This document shows, in pieces, positions 30,232 to 61,049 of a stretch of DNA of 64,000 nt. The position numbers and the translations under genes were made by a program. Every line of letters starts with the position of its first letter. Position 1 is the first letter of the stretch. The notes below the pieces were generated by a model. It did not search any database and was not told the origin of the DNA. It was given only the letters and a program-made list of their open reading frames with translations. The DNA comes from Bacteroidales bacterium (GTDB lineage: Bacteria > Bacteroidota > Bacteroidia > Bacteroidales > UBA932): the NCBI GenBank assembly GCA_016288775.1, contig JAEELG010000120.1, positions 1 to 64,000 on the forward strand, read 5' to 3'.

Positions 30232-30289
30232 CATTAGTAATTAATGGCCAGTTAGTTCTGGCGCACGATTTTTTCGCTTGACAGCCAGG

Positions 30290-30440
30290 CTATTTCTTTA
30301 GGTACTCGTCACCAGGGTGTCTGAGGGGTACGCCCCTCAGTCAAAGTAGTCAGGCTATTGACGAAGGTATTCGTCACCAGGGTGTCTGAGGGGTACGCCC
30401 CTCAGTCAAAGTAGTCAGGCTATTGACGAAGGTATTCGTC
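30290..30440. repeat. 65-bp period tandem repeat with hairpin CTGAGGGG-TACG-CCCCTCAG; includes the 3' tail of the NfnB-like gene
   Basis: TCGTCACCAGGGTGTCTGAGGGGTACGCCCCTCAGTCAAAGTAGTCAGGCTATT at 30306 and 30371; tail-like segment at 30290, 30355 and 30420 (spacing exactly 65). Confidence 0.95.
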
Positions 30441-31796
30441 AATAGCCTTTGCGGCGGTTCGGCCGGCACCCATGGCGAGGATGACGGTGGCGGCGCCGGT
30501 GACGGCGTCACCTCCGGCGAACACGCCTGGACGGGTGGTCGCGCCGCTCTCGTCGGCGACGAGGCAGCCGCGGCGGTTAACCTCAAGACCTGCGGTGGTC
30601 TTGGAGATCATCGGGTTGGGCGAGGTGCCGAGTGCCATGATCACGGTCTCGGTCTCAATCTCGAACTCGCTGCCGGGCACGGGCACGGGGCTGCGGCGGC
30701 CGCTCTCGTCGGGCTCGCCGAGTTCCATGCGGATGCACTTCAGGGCCTTGACCCATCCCTTCTCGTCGCCGATAATCTCGACAGGGTTGGTGAGCATGTC
30801 GAAGATGATGCCTTCCTCGATGGCGTGATGCACCTCCTCCTTACGGGCGGGGAGCTCAGCCTCGGTACGGCGGTACACGATGTGCACCTCGGCGCCCAGA
30901 CGCAGGGCGGTACGCGCTGCATCCATGGCCACGTTGCCACCACCGACCACGCAGACCTTCTTTCCGGCGTGGATAGGGGTCAGGTAGTCCTCGCGCCATG
31001 CCTTCATGAGGTTGTTGCGGGTGAGGAACTCGTTGGCGGAGAACACGCCGCAGAGGTTCTCGCCGGGGATGCCCATGAACTTGGGCAGACCGGCTCCGGA
31101 GCCGATGAACACGGCCTTGAAGCCCTCTTCGTCCATCAGGGAATCGATGGTGACGGTCTTGCCGATGATGACGTCGGTCTCGATCTTCACGCCGAGGCGG
31201 CGGACTTCTTCGATCTCGATCTTGAGCACCTTGTCCTTGGGCAGACGGAACTCGGGAATGCCGTATTCCAGCACGCCGCCGGCCTTGTGCAGGGCCTCGA
31301 AGATGGTGACGTCGTAGCCCCACTTGGCGAGGTCGGACGCGCAGGCGAGGCCTGCAGGGCCGGAACCCACAACGGCCACCTTGATGCCGTTGGCGGGAGC
31401 GCATTCGGCGCTTGCCTCACCGAGGGTGGTGTCGGCCACGAACCTCTCGAGCTTGCCGATGGCCACCGGCTCACCCTTCACGCCAAGCACACAGCTGCCT
31501 TCGCACTGGGTTTCCTGCGGGCACACACGTCCGCAGACGGCGGGCAGGGAGCTGTCTTCGGCGATGATGGCAGCGGCACCCTTGATGTCGCCTTCCACCA
31601 CCTTGGCGATGAATTCGGGAATCTGGATATTCACCGGGCATGCGCTGACGCAGCGCGGGTTCTTGCAATGCAGGCAGCGGCTCGCCTCGAGCATCGCTTC
31701 CTCACGGTTGTAACCGTAGCAGACTTCTTCGAAATTGGTTGCGCGGACCTTGGGATCCTGCTCGCGGACCGCGACTCTGGGTATTCTGTTAGCCAT
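30420..31796 (-). CDS. gltA: NADPH-dependent glutamate synthase small-subunit family protein / NfnB-like ferredoxin:NADP oxidoreductase subunit
   Basis: ASRCLHCKNPRCVSACPVNIQIPEFI, VVGSGPAGLACASDLAKWGYDVTIFEA, VVGGGNVAMDAARTALRLGAEVHIVYRR. Confidence 0.9.
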   Translation of the reverse strand: MANRIPRVAVREQDPKVRATNFEEVCYGYNREEAMLEASRCLHCKNPRCVSACPVNIQIPEFIAKVVEGDIKGAAAIIAEDSSLPAVCGRVCPQETQCEGSCVLGVKGEPVAIGKLERFVADTTLGEASAECAPANGIKVAVVGSGPAGLACASDLAKWGYDVTIFEALHKAGGVLEYGIPEFRLPKDKVLKIEIEEVRRLGVKIETDVIIGKTVTIDSLMDEEGFKAVFIGSGAGLPKFMGIPGENLCGVFSANEFLTRNNLMKAWREDYLTPIHAGKKVCVVGGGNVAMDAARTALRLGAEVHIVYRRTEAELPARKEEVHHAIEEGIIFDMLTNPVEIIGDEKGWVKALKCIRMELGEPDESGRRSPVPVPGSEFEIETETVIMALGTSPNPMISKTTAGLEVNRRGCLVADESGATTRPGVFAGGDAVTGAATVILAMGAGRTAAKAIDEYLRQ

Positions 31797-38048: not shown

Positions 38049-38909
38049 TCAGAACTCTATGTCGGCGTAAATCGGATAGTGGTCCGAGATGTATTTCTTG
38101 CCGGCGTAGGGGTTATTGACCACCTTGAAGCGCAGGCAGCTGCCGAAGCCGCTGTAGTAGATGTAGTCGATAGGCGTAGCGACCTTGGCGTCGTATTCCT
38201 TGCCCGGGTCTCCGGATGTGAAAGGATTGATGCTGAAGCCATTGAATGAGCCATCGGTGTCGGCCTCCACGGCGCTGAAACGCGCGCTCTTCATGAGCTT
38301 GGAGATGTCGGTGAGGCAGTCGTTGTCGGGCAACACGTTGAAGTCGCCGGTCAGGACCATGGGGACCCCGTCCGGGTTCATCTCCTGTATCTTCTTGTAA
38401 ATCAGCGCCAGTCCCTCCCTGCGGGCAACCACGCCCTTGTGGTCGAGGTGGGTGTTCACGAAGTAGAACTTCTTGCCTGTCTCAATGTCGCGCAGCAGGG
38501 CCCAGGTGGCGGTGCGCTTGCAGGCGGCATCCCAGCCCTTGCTCGGCTCGTCAGGAGTCTCGGAGAGCCAGTATGTGCCCCACTCGAGCAGCTTGATGCG
38601 GGTGGAATCGTAGAACACCGACATGTGCTCGCCTTTGGAGATACCGTCCTCACGTCCCACTCCTACGGCTTTGTACTCGGGGCACTGTTCGAGGATATAC
38701 TGAATCTGGAAGTCATAGGCTTCCTGCACGCCGAACACTGCCGGGCGGATATCACGGAGCATTGCGGGAGTGGCCTCCTTGCGCAGTTCCCATGCATTTT
38801 CGCCGTCCTTGGCAACGCCCAGACGGATGTTGTAAGACATTACGCGGATGCCTGCCGACGCGCTCAGCGCAATCAGCACTGCAAATAAAGAAAGTACGAG
38901 CTTTTTCAT
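38049..38909 (-). CDS. secreted endonuclease/exonuclease/phosphatase (EEP) family protein
   Basis: Signal peptide MKKLVLSLFAVLIALSASA; VMSYNIRLG, FGVQEAY, VNTHLDHKGVVAR, TGDFNVLPDN, SDHYPIYADIEF. Confidence 0.9.
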   Translation of the reverse strand: MKKLVLSLFAVLIALSASAGIRVMSYNIRLGVAKDGENAWELRKEATPAMLRDIRPAVFGVQEAYDFQIQYILEQCPEYKAVGVGREDGISKGEHMSVFYDSTRIKLLEWGTYWLSETPDEPSKGWDAACKRTATWALLRDIETGKKFYFVNTHLDHKGVVARREGLALIYKKIQEMNPDGVPMVLTGDFNVLPDNDCLTDISKLMKSARFSAVEADTDGSFNGFSINPFTSGDPGKEYDAKVATPIDYIYYSGFGSCLRFKVVNNPYAGKKYISDHYPIYADIEF

Positions 38910-38935
38910 AACAAGCGTAAAGATAGGAAAAATCC
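38861..38935. repeat. direct repeat copy 1 (5' end of EEP gene)
   Basis: About 67/75 identical to 40631-40705. Confidence 0.9.
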
Positions 38936-40604: not shown

Positions 40605-40679
40605 AATTATCATCGGCAAGTTCCGGAATGCGCTGAGAGCAATCAGCACTGCAAATAAGGATAATACGAGCTTTTTCAT
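40599..40679 (-). pseudogene. vestigial signal-peptide fragment of an EEP paralogue (MKKLVLSLFAVLIALSAFRNLPMIIC*)
   Basis: First 17 residues identical to the 38049-38909 EEP signal peptide, then frame ends inside the palindrome. Confidence 0.75.
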
Positions 40680-40705
40680 AACAGTCGTAAAGATAGGGAA
40701 AATCC
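40631..40705. repeat. direct repeat copy 2 (EEP 5' end remnant)
   Basis: About 67/75 identical to 38861-38935. Confidence 0.9.
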
Positions 40706-43251: not shown

Positions 43252-43450
43252 GCCGGCAGGCAAGCGTCAGGCGGGGCGGAGGTTTTGCTTTGAGCGGCCC
43301 TAGCCATCCGCGGCTGGTAGCGGAAGGGGCCCGCAGGATGCGACTGGCCGCGTGGAGCTTGCTCCAAAGCAGCCAGAAGTATTCTGTGGGAGGGATGAGC
43401 GAAGCGAAGGCCCGAAAAGCAATTCTTCGCCCGCCAGCTTGCCCGCCGGC
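43252..43450. repeat. intergenic element with near-perfect terminal inverted repeats and internal hairpins
   Basis: GCCGGCAGGCAAGC (43252-43265) vs GCTTGCCCGCCGGC (43437-43450), 13/14 complementary; internal GGAGC-TT-GCTCC. Confidence 0.7.
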
Positions 43451-43463
43451 GGGCGCAGTAATG

Positions 43464-45458
43464 CTATTTCAGTCCTCTGGCCCTCAGCAGGGCGGCGGGA
43501 TCGGGATCCTGGCCGCGGAAGGCGCGGTAGAGGGTCATGGGCTCCTCGCTGCCGCCCTTCTCGAGCACATTGTGGCGCAGGCTCATGGATGTCTCCTGGT
43601 CGAAGATGCCCTTCTGCTTGAACAGCTCGAAGGCATCTTTGTCCAGCACCTCGGCCCACAGATAGCTGTAGTAGCCAGCGCTGTAGCCGCTGGAACCGAA
43701 GATATGGTTGAAGTAGGTGCTGCGGTAGCGCGGGATGATCTCCCCGATCAGGCCCATTTCCTTACAGACCTTTGCCTCGAACTCCTCGACATCGATGCCC
43801 TCGACGGAGGACAGCTCATGCCACTTCATGTCCAGGATGCTGGCGGCGCAGAGCTCGCCGGTGGTGAATCCCTGGTTGAAGTTGGATGCCGCCTGCACCT
43901 TGGCCACAAGCTCGGCGGGGATGACCTCACCCGTCTTGTAATGGAAGGCGTAGGTGGCCAGCACCTCGGGCTCGAAGGCCCAGTTCTCGTTCACCTGCGA
44001 AGGGAACTCCACGAAGTCGCGCTTGACGGAGGTGCCGCTGGTGCCCCTGTAAACGCACTGGCTCAGCAGCCCGTGCAGGGCGTGGCCGAACTCGTGGAAC
44101 ATGGTCTCCACCTGGTCGATGGTGAGGAGAGAAGGATTGTCGGCGGTAGGCTTGTTGAAGTTGCCCACGTTCACGATAACCGGGCGCACGCCCTCTTCCT
44201 GCTCCACGAAATTGGTCATCCATGCGCCTCCCCTCTTGCTGTCGCGGGGGAAGTAGTCGGTGATGATGATACCGATGAGGGAGCCGTCGGAATCGCTCAC
44301 CTTGAACGCCTCGCACTCGGGGTTGTAGAGCTTAACGTCCTTGACAGGCTCGAAGCTGATGCCGTAGAGTTTGGATGCGGTGGCGAATACGCCCGCGCGC
44401 ACGTTTTCCATCTTGAAGTACTGCGACACCTCGGACTCGTCGAGGTCGTAACGGGCCTTGCGGACGCGCTCGGCGTAGTACATGTAGTCCCAGGGCTCGA
44501 TCTTGGAGCCGGCGGGCAGAAGGCCGGCGGCCACGTCCTCGTCCATGAGCTTCTGCATGTCGTATACTTCTTCGCGTGCGCGGAGCATGGCTGCATCCAT
44601 GATTTCCTTGAGGAAGGCGTCAACGGTAGGGGCGTCGTGTGCCATCTTGTTCTCGAGGATGAAGTCGGCCGGGCTGTTGTATCCGAGGAGTTTTGCCTTT
44701 TCGATGCGGAGCTCCATCTCGCGGAGCACCACGGCCTTGTTGTCAAATTCGTCTCCATGGTTGCCGCGCTCGGAATAAAGGCGGAAGATCTTCTCGCGAA
44801 GCGCCCTGTCGGACTCGGAAGCCATTTTGTCGTAGTACTGCGACACGGGGAAGCCGAGTTCCTCCTTGAAGGCATTGGACTGTGCCAGGAGGTTGTTGGC
44901 GAAGTTCAGCGTAAGCGTGGAGAGCTCGCTGTTGATCTCGCGCATGCGGGCCTGGGAAGCTTCGTCAAGGCCCACTCCGTTGCGGACAAAGGACTCATAG
45001 AGGTCCTTCAGCAACATCTGCTGCTCACGGGTAAGACCGCTCTGGTCGGCCTCGTAGACCGCCTTAACGCGGGCAAAGAGATCCGGGTTCATCAGGATGT
45101 CGTCGCTGTGGGCGGAAATCATGGGGGTGGCCTCCTCGACCACGGCGTTGAGCTCGGGGCTGTAGTCGGATTCGATGAGGTTGAAGAGCACGGCTCCCAC
45201 CTTGCTCAGCAATTTGCCGCTGGCATCGTAGGCCGCCACGGTGTTCTCGAAGGTCGGGGCGTCGGGGTTGTCGATGATGGCCTGTATCTCCGCCTTCTGC
45301 TCCTCCATACCGGCATTGACCGCCGGCATATAGTCAGCCACCTTTATCTTGTCGAACGGCGGAATTCCGTACGGAGTGTCCCACTCCTGGAAAAATACAT
45401 TCTTCTGACAACCCGTCATGGCCACCATAAACGCTAACGCAAATAATACTTTCTTCAT
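43464..45458 (-). CDS. M3 family metallopeptidase (peptidyl-dipeptidase Dcp-like), lipoprotein
   Basis: Lipobox VAMTGC; MFHEFGHALHGLLSQCVYRGTSGTSVKRDFVEFPSQVNENW. Confidence 0.95.
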   Translation of the reverse strand: MKKVLFALAFMVAMTGCQKNVFFQEWDTPYGIPPFDKIKVADYMPAVNAGMEEQKAEIQAIIDNPDAPTFENTVAAYDASGKLLSKVGAVLFNLIESDYSPELNAVVEEATPMISAHSDDILMNPDLFARVKAVYEADQSGLTREQQMLLKDLYESFVRNGVGLDEASQARMREINSELSTLTLNFANNLLAQSNAFKEELGFPVSQYYDKMASESDRALREKIFRLYSERGNHGDEFDNKAVVLREMELRIEKAKLLGYNSPADFILENKMAHDAPTVDAFLKEIMDAAMLRAREEVYDMQKLMDEDVAAGLLPAGSKIEPWDYMYYAERVRKARYDLDESEVSQYFKMENVRAGVFATASKLYGISFEPVKDVKLYNPECEAFKVSDSDGSLIGIIITDYFPRDSKRGGAWMTNFVEQEEGVRPVIVNVGNFNKPTADNPSLLTIDQVETMFHEFGHALHGLLSQCVYRGTSGTSVKRDFVEFPSQVNENWAFEPEVLATYAFHYKTGEVIPAELVAKVQAASNFNQGFTTGELCAASILDMKWHELSSVEGIDVEEFEAKVCKEMGLIGEIIPRYRSTYFNHIFGSSGYSAGYYSYLWAEVLDKDAFELFKQKGIFDQETSMSLRHNVLEKGGSEEPMTLYRAFRGQDPDPAALLRARGLK

Positions 45459-45470
45459 ATTGATGCTTCT

Positions 45471-45600
45471 GACGGAAAAAAGCTATAGGGGTCTGCAGAC
45501 TACGGACCTACGGTCCTATCCCTCCCATCTTCGATGGGCCCCTCCCACTCACGCTGCGTGGGCGCAGACGGTCTGCAGACCCCTATAGCTTTTTTCCGTC
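45471..45600. repeat. 130-bp cloverleaf-like palindrome with perfect 30-bp inverted repeats
   Basis: GACGGAAAAAAGCTATAGGGGTCTGCAGAC (45471-45500) and its exact reverse complement (45571-45600); internal GGACC-TAC-GGTCC, CCCATC-TTC-GATGGG and CCCAC/GTGGG hairpins. Confidence 0.97.
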
Positions 45601-45608
45601 AATAATAA

Positions 45609-46760
45609 TTAATTGATCTTAACTGAAACCGAAGGTTCATCAACGAGGGTGAACTGGGCGGCACCGCTGTATATCGAAAGGATACCGGTGATGCTGCAGG
45701 TGGCTCCGCCGGTAAGGAGGCGGGAGTCGAGCACCTCGTCGGAGAACTTGGCATATCCGCTGGTACGCACCTGGACGTCAACACTGCCCACCTTGAAATA
45801 ATGCGACACGTAGTTGGCGGTTGCGTACTTGATCATGATTTCCTTGTAGGTGAGCTCGGCGTCGGTGCCGAAGCTGTCGAGCACCTTGCCGGGCTGCAGA
45901 TAATCGGAAGGCTTGCCGGTGATGGGGCCGTAGCGGGTCGAACCGCTGCCCACCTGGGCAGCATCCCATGCACCGCTGCTCACATACTCGATGAACTTGG
46001 CCTTGGACATCGACCAGGTGTCGATACCCCAGACGCCGCCGTCGGACAAGAAGATACGGTTCTCGGGATTGCCGCTCTTGTGAGGCAGGTTGGGATTAGG
46101 ATACAGCAGGGCGAAAATCTCGTTGCCGTACTTGAGGCCGTTGATGGTGACCAGCTTGCCCCAGAGCTCTCCGGTATAGCCGGCGGAAAGGGCTGCCTTC
46201 AGCTCAGTCTCGCCTACCACGGCGGGAGTGAGAGGGTCGGCGAACGCTCCGCGGAATACGTGAGAGTCGATGATAGCCTGGGAATCGATATACGAAGTCT
46301 CATACTCGTTGGTGGTGGTGCTGTCGGGCTCGAGACCAAGCTGCGGCATGCCGTTGTAGGCGCCCAGCGTGAGGTTGTCGCACTTCACATATATCCACTG
46401 CCCGAGCTTGTAGTCGCTGTAGAGCGAAGACTTTCCGAGCTTGAGGTCGATGCCGCCGGTCTCGTCCTGGATATAGATCTCGCGGTAGACGTTGCCGGTG
46501 CGGTCGCTGGAAATGACCTGGCCCTTGATCCAGATGTTGCCGAAGAGTTCGACTCCCCCGCTCTTGTACATGGCCTTGAGGTCGCGTATGGAGGTGAAAC
46601 CGTTGCATCCCAGGGAGCTGAGGTCCTGCTCGGTGTAGAGCTTCATTGCCGCGGGCTTGTTCTCCCCGAAGGTGAACACGGGATCCCATTCCTCCTTCAG
46701 GCTCTTGCAGGAAGAAAACGCCACGAGGGCCACTGATAAAACGATGAATATCTTTTTCAT
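45609..46760 (-). CDS. DUF5689-like OB-fold lipoprotein
   Basis: Lipobox LVAFSSC; IWIKGQVISSDRTGNVYREIYIQDETGGIDLKLG OB-fold-like; start chosen at MKKIFIVLS. Confidence 0.75.
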   Translation of the reverse strand: MKKIFIVLSVALVAFSSCKSLKEEWDPVFTFGENKPAAMKLYTEQDLSSLGCNGFTSIRDLKAMYKSGGVELFGNIWIKGQVISSDRTGNVYREIYIQDETGGIDLKLGKSSLYSDYKLGQWIYVKCDNLTLGAYNGMPQLGLEPDSTTTNEYETSYIDSQAIIDSHVFRGAFADPLTPAVVGETELKAALSAGYTGELWGKLVTINGLKYGNEIFALLYPNPNLPHKSGNPENRIFLSDGGVWGIDTWSMSKAKFIEYVSSGAWDAAQVGSGSTRYGPITGKPSDYLQPGKVLDSFGTDAELTYKEIMIKYATANYVSHYFKVGSVDVQVRTSGYAKFSDEVLDSRLLTGGATCSITGILSIYSGAAQFTLVDEPSVSVKIN

Positions 46761-59744: not shown

Positions 59745-59754
59745 CACCCCTTAA

Positions 59755-59807
59755 CAGCGAGGACAGATTTGCCTGCTTGCAACCTCGCATTAAAAAATGC
59801 TAAAATG
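59755..59807 (+). ncRNA. SAM-II-like (SAM-II/SAM-V superfamily) riboswitch in the metK leader
   Basis: GCGAGG-ACAGATTTGCCTGCTTGCAA-CCTCGC-ATTAAAAAATGCTAAAATG: perfect 6-bp P1, conserved GATTT, TTGCAA before P1 3' strand and GCTAAA after it; 3' pseudoknot strand abuts the ATG. Confidence 0.85.
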
Positions 59808-61049
59808 AACTATCTCTTTACATCGGAGTCGGTCTCCGAAGGGCATCCCGACAAGGTCGCGGACCAGATTTCAGACGCAATTCTCGACGAGTTCCTGTCC
59901 CAGGACCCGGAGTCCAAGGTGGCATGCGAAACCTTCTGCACCGCCGGGCTCGTGGTGGTGGGCGGCGAGGTGCGTTCCGAGCACGCTTACGTCGACATCC
60001 ACGCCACCGTCCGCAAGGTCATTTCCCGCATCGGCTACAACAAGGCCGAATACGGTTTCGACGCCGCTTCCTGCGGCATAATCAGCACCATACACGAGCA
60101 GAGCGCCGACATCAACCGAGGCGTGGTGCGCGAGACGGAAGAAGAGCAGGGCGCCGGCGACCAGGGCATGATGTTCGGCTACGCCTGCCGCGACACCGAG
60201 GAATACATGCCCCTCGCGCTGTCGCTGTCGCACCGCATGCTTCAGATCCTGGCCGACATCCGGCACAACGAGCCTTCGCTCATGCCTTACCTTAGGCCCG
60301 ACGCCAAGGCGCAGTTCACCGTTGAATTCTCCTCGCACCACCACCCGGTGCGCGTACACACAATCGTTCTAAGCACCCAGCACGACGACTTCGGTACCGA
60401 CGAAGAAATGCATGCCCGCATCGAGCGCGACGTGCGTGAAATCGTGATTCCCAGGGTGATAGCTTCCCTGCCGGAGCGTACCGCTGCGCTGTTCAAGGGC
60501 GACTGGATCCTGCACGTGAACCCCACCGGAAAGTTCGTCATCGGCGGGCCCGCCGGCGACACCGGACTCACCGGGCGCAAGATCGTGGTCGACACTTACG
60601 GCGGACGCGGAGCCCACGGCGGCGGAGCCTTCTCCGGAAAAGATTCATCCAAAGTCGACCGCAGCGGCGCATATGCCGCGCGCCACATAGCCAAGAACCT
60701 GGTGGCCGCCGGCGTGTGCGACGAAGCCCTGGTGCAGCTGGCGTACGCCATCGGCGTGGCCGAGCCCGTGAGCGTGTTCGTGGAGACCTACGGCAGCGCG
60801 CACGTGGAGGGCGGTGACGCCTACATCGCATCGCGCGTCCGCGAGCTGTTCGACCTGCGACCTGCCGCCATCGTGCGCAGGTTCGGTTTGAAGAACCCGA
60901 TTTTCGGTCCCACGGCAGCGTACGGGCATGTCGGGCGCAAGCCGTACCGCGCAGTCGTAACCGTCTGCGGGGAGCAGCGCGAGGTGCAGTTCTTCGGCTG
61001 GGAGAAGCTCGACATGGTTGACGATCTGAAGCGAGCCTTCGGCCTATGA
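59805..61049 (+). CDS. metK: S-adenosylmethionine synthetase
   Basis: [68 protein letters not shown]. Confidence 0.98.

Follow-up and report, generated by a model that had tools for sequence, protein, structure and literature searches.

A palindromic repeat of Bacteroidales, probably selfish, with a covarying pseudoknot core and locus-specific arms

Rickettsia palindromic elements (RPEs) are repeats of about 100–150 bp that occur between genes and also in frame within genes likely encoding functional proteins (PMC10969869, PMC3733652). REPs are high-copy sequences that lie mostly in co-directional or convergent spacers, with some in polA and in tRNA-modification genes (PMC3733652); those of the GTAG and CGTC super-families are single hairpins of 20–40 bp, one end of which carries an unpaired GTAG or CGTC. 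Structured MITEs such as Correia/NEMIS of Neisseria and bcr1 of Bacillus cereus measure about 100–200 bp, have TIRs and give hairpin RNAs, and inversion has been reported for Correia elements (PMC10969869).

The element analyzed here consists of a conserved core of about 70–80 nt between two mutually complementary arms of about 27–31 bp. When compared by behaviour rather than by sequence it appears to work like the RPEs, being palindromic, dispersed and within their size range and having among its in-frame hosts DNA polymerase, tRNA- and rRNA-modifying enzymes and cell-wall enzymes, but it is not placed in the RPE family. It differs from RPEs in phylum, in its covarying pseudoknot core, in its insertion-specific arms and in inversion of the core, and the terminal CGTC reported for the RPE of R. 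conorii is not invariant in it, the head of the core reading CGTC in 45, CGTG in 27, CGTA in 27 and CATG in 11 of 118 copies. With REP/BIME sequences and their RAYTs it shares a preference for spacers, insertions in polA and in RNA-modification genes, and a correlation of copy number with Y1 transposase genes; unlike them it is branched and about 100–130 bp long, and it is absent from the flanks of the Y1 genes read. The tail of the core in 118 copies is CGTAG (82), CGTAC (19) or GGAAG (14), with the fifth base paired in P1. Because it has neither the GTAG/CGTC tag and size of a REP nor an adjacent RAYT, the element is described here as RPE-like in its behaviour and not as an RPE proper. It is similar also to Correia/NEMIS and bcr1 in length, TIRs and hairpin structure, and to Correia in its inversion. 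The ends of those elements are conserved between copies, unlike the arms described here, and we know of no pseudoknot core with insertion-specific arms among them.

In the window, i.e. the whole stretch of 64,000 nucleotides that was analyzed, the sole long perfect inverted repeat is the cloverleaf that forms this element (Table 1), with the arm TGACGGAAAAAAGCTATAGGGGTCTGCAGAC at 45470–45500, its exact reverse complement at 45571–45601, and a 70-nt centre. Both flanking genes are on the minus strand; the lipoprotein gene stops (45609) 7 bp before the element and the start codon of the M3 peptidase gene (45458) follows 11 bp after it. The sequence-only reading of this locus had described perfect 30-bp arms 70 bp apart, each ending in a run of six A/T, around three stem-loops. 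Perfection and spacing stand, with the length corrected to 31 bp, but the A6/T6 runs are internal to the arms, at positions 7–12 of 31; and the centre is indeed folded, though covariation on the minus strand makes it better read as an H-type pseudoknot plus two hairpins. Together with AGGGG at 45539–45543, the AGGGATA linker yields a repeated GGGAGGG motif. Other features of the window include a tandem 65-bp repeat at 30283–30448 (89% identical) that is unrelated to the element and has a third, inverted unit in which AGGCTATTGACGAAGGTATTCGTCAATAGCCT occurs; 76-bp duplicates at 38860–38935 and 40630–40705 (89% identical) that cover a signal-peptide start and upstream sequence; and a SAM-II riboswitch on the plus strand at 59753–59813 (Rfam RF01726, 55.8 bits).

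Table 1. Positions in the window of the element, its parts, the flanking genes and a second family member.
Feature	Position	Strand	Remark
Whole element (31 + 70 + 31 bp)	45470..45601	-	Conserved fold is the minus-strand reading
5' arm (P1, 5' strand)	45571..45601	-	Perfect complement of 45470-45500
3' arm (P1, 3' strand)	45470..45500	-	Perfect complement of 45571-45601
P2 5' strand, CTGC	45564..45567	-	Pairs with 45554-45557; P2 covariation, 97.1% of cells paired
P2 3' strand, GCAG	45554..45557	-	Partner of CTGC 45564-45567
Pseudoknot 5' strand, CCCAC, in P2 loop	45558..45562	-	Pairs with 45544-45548
Pseudoknot 3' strand, GTGGG	45544..45548	-	Partner of CCCAC 45558-45562
Hairpin CCC-ATCGAAGAT-GGG (stem HP2)	45524..45538	-	Apical part hypervariable yet paired
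Conserved linker AGGGATA	45517..45523	-	Invariant columns
Hairpin GGACC-GTA-GGTCC (P4)	45504..45516	-	Covariation alignment
M3-type peptidase gene	43464..45458	-	Downstream of element, start codon 11 bp away
Lipoprotein gene	45609..46760	-	Upstream of element, co-directional; start inferred at MKKIFIVLS
Second, divergent family member, long HP2	43285..43422	+	Just 3' of M3 peptidase gene

On the strand that carries GGGAGGG the fold runs in the order P1 (the arms), P2 hairpin, HP2 hairpin and P4 hairpin; the P2 loop, CCCNN, pairs with a downstream NNGGG to make the pseudoknot, and HP2 is bracketed by the two GGGAGGG motifs. RNA folding of the element gave -86 kcal/mol (z = -10.1) and folding with DNA parameters z = -13.5, and none of 200 shuffles folded as well. 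Among 35 aligned copies 91.3% of cells were paired versus 65.5% when shuffled, with 325 double-change cells versus 113 in shuffles, and pairing collapsed to 34–47% in slid control alignments. The two variable pairs of the pseudoknot were AU20/GC15 and UA20/CG15 with zero exceptions in those 35 copies; in alignment A2 the pseudoknot pairing was 100%, with AU/GC and UA/CG exchanges. At the first apical pair of HP2, G.U was found 55 times and A.C once among 119 copies, and this large excess indicates that the core fold is read from the GGGAGGG strand; in the arms G.U (36) and A.C (30) showed no asymmetry, so the arms give no strand sign. No Rfam family matched the element at gathering score. A covariance model (R1), built on alignment A2 with copies having a 1-nt J excluded, matched the element in the window at 45487–45584 with 98.1 bits. 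It also matched the divergent member at 43285–43422 (31 bits; E 3.9e-5 for the window and E 0.0014 for the genome), which has P2 as AGCC/GGCT and the pseudoknot as TCCGC/GCGGA, so that the M3 gene is flanked by two family members.

The core recurs at six further places in the window's own genome at about 77–99% identity and R1 adds two weaker ones, for 8–9 family copies in total, genome-wide counts resting on searches. The sequence-only reading had called for a check of copy number, and the core proved to be multicopy both in its own genome and in relatives, so it is not a single-copy sequence. BLASTN with the window core gave matches in 30 of 120 genomes, each of the 30 belonging to the window's own genus, suspected to be Ca. 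Cryptobacteroides. With R1 the family was detected in 110 of the 131 genomes searched from that genus, with from 1 to at least 30 copies per genome (30 candidates were scored in each); 28–29 copies were held by the long-contig genomes G016 (8 contigs) and G144 (5 contigs). Across the order the family was otherwise rare, being present among 294 genomes in four further ones with 3–9 copies each, one from the same taxonomic family and three from other families, and in all four the core and arms were those described here. When GTDB representatives were scanned by pattern, over 100 loci were returned; those listed all came from Bacteroidales/Bacteroidia MAGs, for the most part of ruminant or horse origin, and Ca. 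Coprenecus avistercoris was also among them. All genomes are MAGs as far as the records show. The core pattern was not matched exactly in any viral contig. The literature searched contained no description of this repeat, and the family is apparently undescribed, a palindromic-repeat type that combines a pseudoknot core, inherited pairing, frequent inversion and in-frame residence within essential genes.

Copies of the element keep the pairing of the arms and not their sequence. One copy in the window's genome (C129) has a core identical to that of the window at 73 of 74 positions and arms that are complementary to each other and unrelated to those of the window, and the other copies of that genome, together with dozens of loci in relatives, likewise have locus-specific, self-complementary arms. 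When 118 copies were aligned on the core, arm complementarity was about 0.7 at positions 4–26, higher at positions 1–3, and fell to background (about 0.3) by positions 28–31; this falling off past position 26 means that the arms have a defined length, about 27 bp. Among close orthologues, 364 arm pairs contained 20 paired double changes and 34 single changes, with the changes clustered in some cases. The arms thus change together, which supports the earlier suggestion that their perfection implies gene conversion. Arms were shared within a burst of copies in one genome (G065) and in some subfamilies, and were unrelated among most copies with near-identical cores.

When genes were called by a simple codon-usage method, 138 of 165 copies fell between genes, and these often filled the spacer to within 0–30 nt of both genes; the spacers were co-directional in 73 cases, convergent in 26 and divergent in 12. 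The orientation of the core with respect to genes was random, with no fixed strand, and there was no common downstream gene for copies across genomes. In relatives the gene pair of the window is separated by an element-free spacer of about 0–15 bp, and the whole stretch of about 130 bp is thus an insertion. At least 22 of 192 copies were embedded in an open reading frame whose coding signal continued on either side of the element; relative to the fold strand, 7 of these were in sense and 15 in antisense orientation. Their hosts include polA (DNA polymerase I), atpG (ATP synthase gamma), ygiQ, tilS, murB and dnaX, and genes for UDP-glucose dehydrogenase, an RlmB/TrmH-family methyltransferase, PBP1C and an MFS transporter; three are in the window's own genome, in genes for an RlmB-like enzyme (C118), YgiQ (C131) and DnaX (C37). 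For UDP-glucose dehydrogenase and the RlmB-like methyltransferase, the alignment with homologues of solved structure is interrupted where the element lies. In the latter the element occupies the same loop in seven species, inverted in one, and five species have a short loop without it; the only segment of its AlphaFold2 model with pLDDT <50, residues 72–106, overlaps the insert (64–100), which is accordingly predicted to be disordered. Both orientations of the core were found in frame in orthologues of the RlmB-like methyltransferase, YgiQ, the MFS transporter and PBP1C. Since all of these frames remain open, the insert is more plausibly translated, and tolerated in the protein, than cut out of the RNA. 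Self-splicing or excision from mRNA was rejected as a general explanation because one and the same gene can carry either orientation in frame.

Comparison of orthologous sites gives some indication of how copies come and go. In 59 pairs of occupied sites the core faced the same way in 32 and was inverted in 27, and where flanks were at least 90% identical it faced the same way in two pairs and was inverted in four. Because the arms differ from locus to locus, an inverton driven by a recombinase with a common site is unlikely. Empty orthologous sites in relatives of 84–96% identity represent gain or loss. Two near-perfect palindromes lack the core where relatives carry the whole element (L293 in G023:C12 and L298 in G048:C23). 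These raised the possibility that cores had been inserted into pre-existing palindromes, which was rejected; L293 has an extra G and an altered arm end, and loss of the core is preferred because this footprint resembles a deletion between GCAGAC repeats. One orthologue lacks HP2, lost between the two GGGAGGG motifs. In the G065 burst ten or more copies were almost identical in core, arms and outer flanks, and since copies L344–L354 share flanks beyond the arms (GGTGCCGTTCTTG ... CAAGAACGGCACAGCCTGCGAGCAGCATTCCGG) the unit amplified there was larger than arms plus core. Possible target duplications (GTTCTA, AGTAC and CGGA) were seen at three sites, with no constant length. The arms may possibly be target-derived, as an inverted duplication of the flank, and at L058 the outer 13 nt of the arms do resemble the empty site; against this, the spacer of the relative was too short or unrelated to the arms at L064, L069 and L070.

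No matching transposase was found beside the element. Genes for Y1/RAYT-like proteins (Y1_Tnp) were present in 89 of 110 element-bearing versus 7 of 21 element-free genomes (Fisher p = 3e-5), and Y1 correlated with copy number (Spearman 0.45), statistics that ignore phylogeny and genome completeness. In the sequence around 20 Y1 genes, read as loci of at most 6.4 kb, there was no clear copy of the element within about 3 kb and one weak match (20 bits), and the window's own genome, which is 84% complete, had no Y1 match. Reverse transcriptase (RVT_1) showed no association, being found in 5 of 10 element-rich and 5 of 8 element-free genomes. The link to Y1/RAYT-like enzymes is thus regarded as a lead only. 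The loci L400–L419, from element-rich genomes, include several RAYT-like Y1 proteins of 285–330 aa with SNHVHF and PDHIHI motifs.

Taken as a whole, the patterns make it likely that the element is one copy of a hitherto unclassified Bacteroidales family of palindromic elements, dispersed and non-autonomous, and we consider it probable that the family is selfish. A non-autonomous, MITE- or REP-like mobile element was among the possibilities raised by the sequence-only reading, and it gains from the multiple copies, the empty orthologous sites and the burst in G065. An alternative explanation could be a conventional MITE, i.e. a DDE insertion sequence that has lost its interior and is mobilised by its parent's transposase acting on the terminal inverted repeats, for which the size, the TIR-like arms, the lack of coding capacity, the empty sites and the burst would all be expected. 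This is rather unlikely, as the arms are not conserved even between copies whose cores are 99% identical and so cannot be a fixed transposase site; no constant target duplication was seen, and there was no autonomous relative among the loci read. It is also unlikely that the family is a multicopy functional structured RNA, a cis-regulator or small RNA in which the pseudoknot core would be the functional part and P1 would merely close it. The strand-specific covariation, the pseudoknot and the G.U excess in the core point toward an RNA, and the copy in the window lies on the coding strand just before a start codon; against such a role are the random orientation to genes with flips at about half of orthologous sites, the broad range of copy number with no shared downstream gene, the apparent translation of copies in unrelated genes in both orientations, and the lack of an Rfam match. 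Of the structured RNA that had been suggested earlier, the strand-specific covarying fold of the core has held up, and a role as RNA would be putative; the element is probably not a cis-regulatory RNA.

A terminator is not supported. Its long GC-rich stem and its frequency between co-directional and convergent genes might suggest a bidirectional Rho-independent terminator or an mRNA 3'-end stabiliser, and a bidirectional super-terminator had been suggested from the A/T runs, but runs of T≥5 were found on the 3' side in 20 of 118 copies on the RNA strand and 19 of 118 on the other, many copies are inside reading frames, and what is conserved is the core rather than a stem followed by T. A role of this kind is therefore very improbable. 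Least credible is an assembly artefact, in the form of palindromic contigs or chimeric MAG joins. Two contig ends in G048 do have unusually long perfect inverted repeats that reach the end of the contig (L073 at the end of C191 and L074 at the start of C85, with perfect arms of 70 to >110 bp), which represent either very long arms or assembly fold-back; however, the same sites recur in independent MAGs, covariation cannot arise from assembly, and the two long-contig genomes are among those rich in copies.

If the family is selfish, a mobilising enzyme supplied in trans would recognise the core in its folded single-stranded form, as ssDNA or as RNA. Complementarity of the arms would be kept mainly by arm-to-arm templating, through gene conversion or template switching in replication, and the same process may invert the core. 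Insertions would survive where harm is small, i.e. in co-directional or convergent spacers and in disordered surface loops of proteins. The copy in the window would have inserted in the short spacer between the lipoprotein and M3 genes and would now be part of the leader of the M3 gene, with a possible local effect on the M3 transcript, e.g. processing of the 31-bp stem by RNase III. More tentatively, and with some doubt on our part, this could be a new kind of mobile unit: what moves would be the pseudoknot core as a folded single strand, and the arms would be built or templated anew whenever a copy is made or the core inverts, so that pairing is inherited and sequence is not. A Y1/RAYT-like enzyme, or a system related to it, would mobilise such a unit in trans.

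Selfish DNA that is translated as part of essential genes is best known from Rickettsia, and the finding would extend this phenomenon to an abundant and largely uncultured lineage of gut and rumen Bacteroidales. The architecture is one in which structure is conserved and arm sequence is not, and the element offers a case for asking how a structured repeat without its own enzyme spreads. Its frequent inversion, also within genes while the frame stays open, makes it a natural system for rates of template switching. It is also a warning for gene callers and structure predictors, in that inserts of 35–50 residues in the core proteins of these bacteria can be repeat-derived.
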